Made by a program: the position numbers and the translations under genes | Notes under the pieces: generated by a model | Told to the model about the DNA's origin: nothing | The model's input: the letters and a program-made list of their open reading frames with translations, nothing else | Database searches by the model: none | Assembly: GCF_003144245.1 (NCBI RefSeq) | Contig: NW_020289975.1 | Span: forward strand, 2,561,496 to 2,625,495 | Direction: 5' to 3' | DNA length: 64,000 nucleotides | Source: Jaminaea rosea | Lineage: Eukaryota > Basidiomycota > Exobasidiomycetes > Microstromatales | Shown here: positions 603-2,553 of the stretch, one piece after another | Layout: each line of letters starts with the position of its first letter | Numbering within the stretch: position 1 is the stretch's first letter

Positions 603-2553
603 CTACACGCTCATCTTCATCTCAATCTTCTTGTGCGGCTGGTACCCAATCACCTCAAAGTCCTCCGCCTTGAAACCATCCACATCTCCTACTTGCCTCT
701 TGATCCCCAAAGTCGGGAAACTCCTAGGCGTCCTAGTCAGCTGCTCTTTGAGCCCATCGACGTGATCCTTGTACACATGCGCATCCCCCATGACCAGCGT
801 CAACTCTCTCGCCTCGCAACCAGTAACGTGCGCGATCATGTGCGTGAGGAGGGCGTAGCTTGCGATGTTGAATGGGATGCCTAGCCCAAGGTCGCAGGAG
901 CGTTGGTACATTTGGCAGGAGAGGCCGGGTTTGCCGCCCTCTTTCGTGGGCAGAGTCACGTAGAACTGAGCAAACATGTGACAGGGTGGAAGGGCCATCA
1001 GAGGGAGGTCTGGGTGCGAGGGTGAAGCCGTCGTTAGCGCGATGCTCTTCGCCACATTTCGCGCTGCGCTCACCCTTCGGATTCCAAGCACTCATCACCA
1101 TTCTCCTGTCCGTCGGATTCTTCTTGATCGTCTCGACGATCTCCTTCAACTGGTCCACCCCCTTGCCAGCGTAATCAGCATCCGCATCTTCGTAGGCAGC
1201 ACCAAAATGGCGCCACTGGAAGCCGTACACTGGTCCGAGGTCGCCCTCCCGTCGATGCTGCAGTCCCCTCGAGTCTAGGAAGCTACGCGATCCATTGCCA
1301 TCCCAGATGTGGACATCTCGCTCCTCGAGCTTCTTCGCGTCTGTACAGCCGCCGACGAACCAGAGGAGCTCTTCAACTACGCCTCGCCAAAAGACGCGCT
1401 TCGTCGTGAGCAGGGGAAGTCGGTTGTTGGTGAGATCGAACTTGAATGGCTGAGGAGCAAAGAGGGCGAGAGTGCCTGTGCCTGTTCTGTCTGCTCGCGG
1501 CTGGCCGTGATTGATGACGCGAGAGATGAGGGAAAGGTACTGTTGTTCTTCATGAGGTGTTGAGGCGGTAGGCTGGCCGGAGGGGTTGGAGGGGGAGACG
1601 GATACAGTGGGGGACGGGCCACTGTCCAAGGGAGGAACAGCAGGGACGATTGGGTTGTGAGCAAACCGAGCATTGCTTGTCAATAGGCATAACGCCGCGT
1701 CCACTCACGTCTTTGAGGAGAACATGCCTGCGATCGTTGGCTCATCGAAGTTGTGGTGCGCGTACGATAGAATGCACACGCCTCCTGCGTCCATCTCAAA
1801 GAGACGGCCGTTGGTCAGAGGCAGGCCGAGCCAGCGGGTGATGAAGCAGCTGCGGGTGATGATGACGGGCGAAAGATCAGCGACACAATGCTTACCAGTC
1901 AAGAGCCTTGCTCTCTCGCCCGCCAGTCCTCACCGGCTGTGATGCCCATGGCTGACAATCATGACATCGCCCCCCTTCTGCATCACCGCTTGATCATGCG
2001 TCCTCTCGGGATGGCCTTCGATGACGGCCTTCTGCAACCTCTTGATCTCAGCGATAGTCCCATCAATCCTCTTTGTCATATCCTCTGCCGACTCTCCCTT
2101 GAGCTCAGGACGAGTAGCATGGTCTTTGGTTCCGTCAACCCAAATATCCCATCCTGGCCATTCCTGCCTGATCTCCCCGGTCTTACGTCCCTCTGCGAAG
2201 CCATAACGCCATTCCTGACATTCGGGCTTTACTTCTGGCTGGACGACGTTTGCGAGTTCGTGCTCTGTGAGGTGGGCTAGGAGTAGCTGCAAGGTCCGCC
2301 TTGATCGAGTACGTGGGCTCGTCCAGATATGGCTGATCCTAGTGGGGTCGACGGTAAAGCGACGATCTTGCTTGTCTCCCTCTGGGCTGTTGACGCCAAC
2401 GAAGGTGGGTGCCAAGCGTGCCATGACCTCTTCCCCGTGAGCGGTGAGGGGAATGTCCGTCTCTCCTGTATGTTGGCCGCTGAGCGACCACTCAGTCTCG
2501 CCGTGCCGGACGAGGATGACACGGGGCATGCGTACGGGGGGCGAGGGGGACAT
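603..2553 (-). CDS. Sedoheptulose-1,7-bisphosphatase (SHB17-like histidine phosphatase) fused to thymidylate synthase
   Basis: Model: complement join of 2553-1934, 1849-1709, 1621-1074 and 1009-603, giving 571 aa. Residues 1-253 are a histidine phosphatase of the SHB17 type: RHGETEW with His17 near the start, the [16 protein letters not shown] segment, and the second catalytic His at about 202 in VSHGH. SHB17 makes sedoheptulose-7-phosphate for riboneogenesis. Residues about 275-571 are a full thymidylate synthase (dUMP to dTMP): DRTGTGT, catalytic Cys446 in LPPCH, the [12 protein letters not shown] block and the HVYKDH block. The synthase frame has no ATG before its core; its only upstream link is an intron (1622-1708, GTGAGT donor, GACAG acceptor) that joins the phosphatase in frame. 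The other introns are 1850-1933 and 1010-1073. Without splicing at 1708 the phosphatase stops at a TGA overlapping the donor and would be 254 aa long; that isoform may exist too. Confidence 0.78.

Follow-up and report, generated by a model that had tools for sequence, protein, structure and literature searches.

Organization of the locus

The locus was located on the minus strand between positions 2553 and 603 of the window, i.e., the whole 64-kb stretch of DNA analyzed, which had a GC content of 59% and contained no Ns. Splicing of exons 2553–1934, 1849–1709, 1621–1074, and 1009–603, with the removal of three GT–AG introns, yielded a single 571-aa frame with a terminal stop codon, in which both a histidine phosphatase domain and a thymidylate synthase domain were encoded. 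All the parts of the gene described below are on the minus strand.

Exon 1 (1934–2553) started with ATG at 2553 and encoded the N-terminal and central parts of an SHB17-like histidine phosphatase; its coding log-odds was −6.6 in-frame versus −68.1 and −60.3 in the other frames. Intron 1 (1850–1933; 84 nt, phase 2) carried an in-frame TGA across its donor. Exon 2 (1709–1849) encoded the C-terminal part of the phosphatase and the first two bases of a Thr codon, and carried two in-frame ATGs (1794 and 1725). The fusion intron, intron 2 (1622–1708; 87 nt, phase 2, GTGAGT...CAG), was followed by a linker (1555–1621) made up of the base completing the Thr codon and 22 residues rich in Pro, Ser, and Thr, for which the coding score was +1.7 in the fusion frame versus −0.2 and −5.9 in the other two. 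The remainder of exon 3 (1074–1554) encoded the N-terminal part of the synthase core, from HEEQQYL to NPK. Intron 3 (1010–1073; 64 nt, phase 1), the place of which was set by homology to the structure 2aaz, had a donor score of 6.61, a weak acceptor (1.11), and a CTAAC branch-like motif. Exon 4 (603–1009) encoded the C-terminal remainder of the synthase, including the PPCHMF motif, and ended with KMSV and a stop codon.

The matrices used to score splice sites were derived from a catalogue of 16 predicted introns located in other parts of the window. This catalogue was produced by a gene finder trained on the long ORFs of the window with the fusion locus held out (18 genes and 16 introns), using hand-set splice matrices based on the consensus and a strong intron penalty. 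Catalogue introns were 71–132 nt in length. The donor of intron 1 (3.67; its acceptor scored 6.51) was just under the lowest catalogue donor (3.9), and the acceptor of intron 3 was also under the catalogue range; homology backs both positions.

Domain composition and homology

Two domains were found in the 571-aa product by the Pfam search (E up to 0.001). His_Phos_1 (PF00300) occupied residues 12–241 and scored 117 bits (cut-off, 21.7), and Thymidylat_synt (PF00303) occupied residues 280–571, covering positions 1–266 of the 266-position profile, and scored 363 bits (cut-off, 24.3).

The synthase part also matched TIGR03284 (296 bits versus a cut-off of 108) and seven further NCBIfam models, all of them synthases, each match being under the stricter cut-off of its model. 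The closest solved structure was 2aaz (E 7e-144), which we take to be the thymidylate synthase of Cryptococcus neoformans; residues 19–316 of the synthase part were aligned with it in one stretch with two short gaps, PPCHMF and the conserved segments that bind the nucleotide included. The Cys residue of this motif is presumably the catalytic one. Several structure matches of the synthase part were named DHFR-synthase (e.g., 8dae and 3inv). The similarity to 2aaz, together with the GC content and the shortness of the introns, is in keeping with a fungal source, probably a basidiomycete.

Among solved structures, the N-terminal domain was closest to yeast Shb17 (YKR043C; 3lg2, 3f3k, and 3ll4; E 2e-33); the other matches were 2a6p (3e-21) and phosphoglycerate mutases (about 5e-4). 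The RHG motif and the second catalytic His of branch 1 of the histidine phosphatase superfamily were present, RHGETEW and SHGH aligning to Shb17. The domain shared with the yeast protein the motifs RHGxTEW, SPRxRxRxT, EWxYG, HGH, and DAGGxxxLSYAHHNxDEP.

Colinearity with Shb17 did not extend over the whole length: about 33 residues of the yeast enzyme (3lg2 chain residues 213–247, between WFGL and DAGG) had no counterpart, whereas bacterial 2a6p was aligned with our protein without a gap at the site of this insertion. Yeast Shb17 is a stand-alone protein, while the SHB17-like domain here appears to be fused to a synthase. The name sedoheptulose bisphosphatase, proposed in the sequence-only reading, reflects Shb17 being the best homologue among solved structures; the yeast insertion is absent. 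We therefore term the domain SHB17-like only, a provisional name that refers to its best homologue. In yeast, Shb17 is described as dephosphorylating sedoheptulose-1,7-bisphosphate, thereby supplying the pentose phosphate pathway (PMC8151747).

Splice signals of the fusion intron

An intron with GTGAGT at 1708 and GACAG ending at 1622 had been claimed to join the two frames; it was recovered at precisely these positions and gave the 571-aa product. The absence of a synthase ATG ahead of the conserved core also held true: the synthase frame contained no ATG between TGA 1707 and the His codon at 1554, which is the first conserved one. The stop codon of the unspliced phosphatase frame, TGA 1707–1705, lay inside the donor of intron 2, as had been noted previously.

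Donor 1708 scored 6.83, the highest value among the 89 GT sites of the locus and a mid-range one in the catalogue; only 28 of the 6,836 GT sites on both strands of the window scored at least as high. Acceptor 1622 (5.47) ranked third among the 148 AG sites of the locus and was near the bottom of the catalogue range (5.4–10.3). A branch-like CTCAC was located 36 nt from the 3' end of the intron; in 15 of the 16 catalogue introns, a CTNAY motif was found 22–44 nt from the 3' end. Coding scores of intron 2 were negative in every frame (−10.5, −8.5, and −8.2).

An equally good combination of donor, acceptor, and branch site arose by chance at a rate of 0.4 per 128 kb of simulated sequence (10 runs, second-order Markov model), the thresholds having been set post hoc, just under the observed values. 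In the window itself, 10 sites reached 6.8 for the donor and 5.4 for the acceptor and also had a branch motif. They comprised the fusion intron, six catalogue introns (of 16), and three strong intron-like sites that belonged to no predicted gene of the same strand. These three were 17151–17276 (plus strand), 17637–17514 (minus strand), and 61775–61872 (plus strand).

A spliced leader exon supplying the synthase with an ATG from elsewhere would have contradicted the fusion. Enumeration of all single-intron ways to provide such an ATG, the donor lying no more than 600 nt upstream, gave 42 options. None of them exceeded the pair 1708/1622, which scored 12.3; the runner-up (9.37) required a 565-nt intron, and among the 11 options with introns of 42–160 nt, the best other than 1708/1622 scored 8.58.

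The gene was called under 22 of 24 local gene-finder settings, and 1708/1622 was used in all 22. The full 2553–603 model was obtained under 16 of the 24 settings, each of which included a coding bonus (0.03 or 0.06 per base); without the bonus (eight settings), the model started at 1983 or 2204 in six cases and nothing was called in two. Codon bias of the fusion gene was weak, and at its own settings the gene finder did not call the gene.

Preferred and alternative explanations

The locus is probably best explained as one gene encoding a 571-aa protein—an SHB17-like phosphatase, a linker, and thymidylate synthase—with intron 2 being an ordinary intron that is normally removed. Its chief competitor is a transcript encoding the synthase alone, which could also coexist with the fusion: two overlapping genes, the phosphatase gene ending at TGA 1707 and the synthase transcript starting inside exon 2 of the phosphatase and using the same intron. 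This arrangement is unlikely, although several features agree with it. After splicing, ATGs 1794 and 1725 are in the synthase frame and would give proteins of 346 and 323 aa, respectively; a G occupies position −3 of ATG 1725; the N-terminus so produced would have a length similar to that of 2aaz (the alignment begins at residue 14 of 317); and the phosphatase is nearly full-length at the TGA, reaching residue 279 of 292 of the 3lg2 chain. However, this arrangement needs a promoter within a coding exon, and phosphatase transcripts must leave the best-scoring donor of the locus unspliced, whereas a normally spliced transcript from the phosphatase promoter would still yield the fusion. Initiation of the synthase from a non-AUG codon, like translational read-through at TGA 1707, seems very improbable. 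Read-through could also produce a fusion, the intron length being a multiple of 3 and the unspliced frame containing a single TGA, and a non-AUG start was reported for a fungal enzyme of the pentose phosphate pathway (PMC7214817). The stop context is, however, TGA GTG and not the TGA CT(A) described as driving read-through in Ustilago maydis (PMC4207609), and all near-cognate codons ahead of the synthase core—TTG 1629, ATC 1650, TTG 1683, and GTG 1704 (CTG, TTG, GTG, ACG, ATT, ATC, and ATA were scanned in the synthase frame)—sit within intron 2. A sequence or assembly error that conceals where a stand-alone synthase really begins is the least probable explanation of all: besides the lack of Ns, the frames are open throughout the two domains, and it would then be an unexplained coincidence that a good intron has the right position and phase.

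The sequence-only reading had further proposed that transcripts keeping intron 2 encode a 254-aa phosphatase and those lacking it the bifunctional protein, coupling ribose supply to dTMP synthesis. We regard such a regulated switch as improbable. The retained-intron frame does end directly past the nearly complete phosphatase domain, acceptor 1622 is near the bottom of the catalogue range, and enzyme isoforms produced through alternative splicing or read-through of stop codons are described in fungi (PMC4207609). Yet the overlap of stop codon and donor, on which the proposal was built, was not borne out as a sign of a switch: it was found in all nine phase-2 introns of the catalogue, a count partly built in as the donor matrix favors GTRAG, and in intron 1 of the fusion gene itself. 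In a phase-2 G|TRA intron, the split codon takes its third base from the first G of the intron, so that TGA or TAA follows as the next triplet; a stop across the donor is thus automatic for every phase-2 intron that begins with GTGA or GTAA, and it is therefore uninformative about any switch. Intron 1 served as a control, the frame there stopping at TGA right behind SHGHHSR. A phosphatase domain ending at the retained stop would be expected wherever an intron of this type falls at a domain junction. Intron 2 was ordinary in its donor, length, and branch motif, and with the intron retained about 1 kb would lie past the stop, making this form a likely target of nonsense-mediated decay. More generally, a stop codon across a phase-2 GTGA/GTAA donor must not be taken as a designed switch.

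A peroxisomal switch was considered separately and rejected: the retained form ends with SKT and the fusion with MSV, neither of which fits the PTS1 consensus.

On the whole, the part of the earlier interpretation concerning the fusion was upheld by the frames, the splice scores, the coding signal, and the lack of a better-scoring start, while its regulated two-product model was not. The open frames, the two domains, the splice signals, and the lack of a better-scoring synthase start are direct observations on this locus.

Comparison with known systems

In most fungi, thymidylate synthase is known as a stand-alone enzyme. Fungal fusions with a C-terminal thymidylate synthase are known: Hal3 of Schizosaccharomyces pombe carries a functional thymidylate synthase as its C-terminal domain, behind a PPCDC core (PMC6695811), and the synthase domain in Schizosaccharomyces is also mentioned in PMC9604783. 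The fusion proposed here is likewise fungal with the synthase at its C-terminus; the partner in Hal3, however, is the PPCDC core, involved in coenzyme A synthesis, whereas in our case it is a histidine phosphatase. The DHFR-thymidylate synthase of plants and protists is similarly bifunctional with a C-terminal synthase (PMC5464667). DHFR recycles the synthase's own product, while the phosphatase partner found here belongs to a distant pathway.

The pairing of a histidine phosphatase with thymidylate synthase was not found in the openly licensed literature searched, which was limited in scope; in PMC2705460, DHFR-synthase alone is named. The synthase as a C-terminal part of a fungal fusion is already known, and the phosphatase partner appears to be new. 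The phosphatase–synthase architecture may nonetheless be present, but unnamed, in protein databases.

No two-domain relatives were detected in the scanned viral and prokaryotic contig collections, each protein being represented by six short peptides. In viral contigs, all 46 confirmed loci obtained with the fusion query matched the synthase part alone (residues 263 onward), and the query with the phosphatase alone gave two pattern matches, neither of which was a relative. Two loci were matched in genome contigs, both by the synthase only. This absence says little because the scans relied on six peptides and covered collections of viruses and prokaryotes.

In Agaricomycetes, read-through (polycistronic) transcripts spanning neighboring genes are described; between their ORFs, stops occur in all frames, with a mean gap of 364 nt (PMC4503453). 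Unlike those loci, the fusion gene here would have its frames joined by splicing without a stop.

Promoter region and neighboring genes

The ACGCGT box, a cell-cycle element of yeast synthase genes, was absent from the divergent promoter (2554–2801) and from 1622–2553. A palindrome, CCGCGTCGACGCGG, with two ACGCG cores was found at 2691–2704, between the fusion gene and a plus-strand ORF starting at 2802; at least two ACGCG cores occurred in 10.6% of all 248-nt windows. The pattern GTCGACGCG, which was picked after the palindrome had been seen, had six matches in the analyzed stretch (two of them being the palindrome) versus 1.28 expected, and none of 100 shuffles contained as many. The divergent ORF (2802–3977, plus strand) encoded a Ser-rich protein of 391 aa with no Pfam matches at E up to 0.001.

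Other genes of the window included one for a predicted 2,304-aa protein (55060–62048, minus strand), which we take to resemble the URA2/CAD-type carbamoyl-phosphate synthase and aspartate transcarbamylase. The occurrence of two pyrimidine genes in one 64-kb window is probably a coincidence. A MaoC/MFE-2 hydratase-like protein was encoded at 25040–26047 (minus strand); its C-terminal SKL is presumably a peroxisomal signal. A beta-tubulin gene with four predicted introns, which could serve as a taxonomic marker, was located at 45019–46709 (plus strand).

Proposed origin and significance of the fusion

If the fusion gene is real, two tandem neighboring genes may have come under one promoter and into one frame, with intron 2 bridging the reading frame between the formerly separate neighbors. 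The linker may derive from the old intergenic gap or from the N-terminal tail of the synthase. Provided that the fusion intron is spliced and both domains are active, a fixed 1:1 co-expression of the two enzymes would be the consequence. Sedoheptulose-7-phosphate and dUMP are separated by many pathway steps, and substrate channelling between the domains is unlikely for this reason; at most, coupling at the level of supply is to be expected.

Such a gene would tie thymidylate synthase 1:1 to a phosphatase that in yeast supplies carbon to the pentose phosphate pathway. It would represent a further fungal synthase fusion beside Hal3 of S. pombe, with another partner, and would offer a natural case for testing if links of this sort are metabolically meaningful or reflect the neutral joining of neighbors. 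The fusion might also be usable as a lineage marker.
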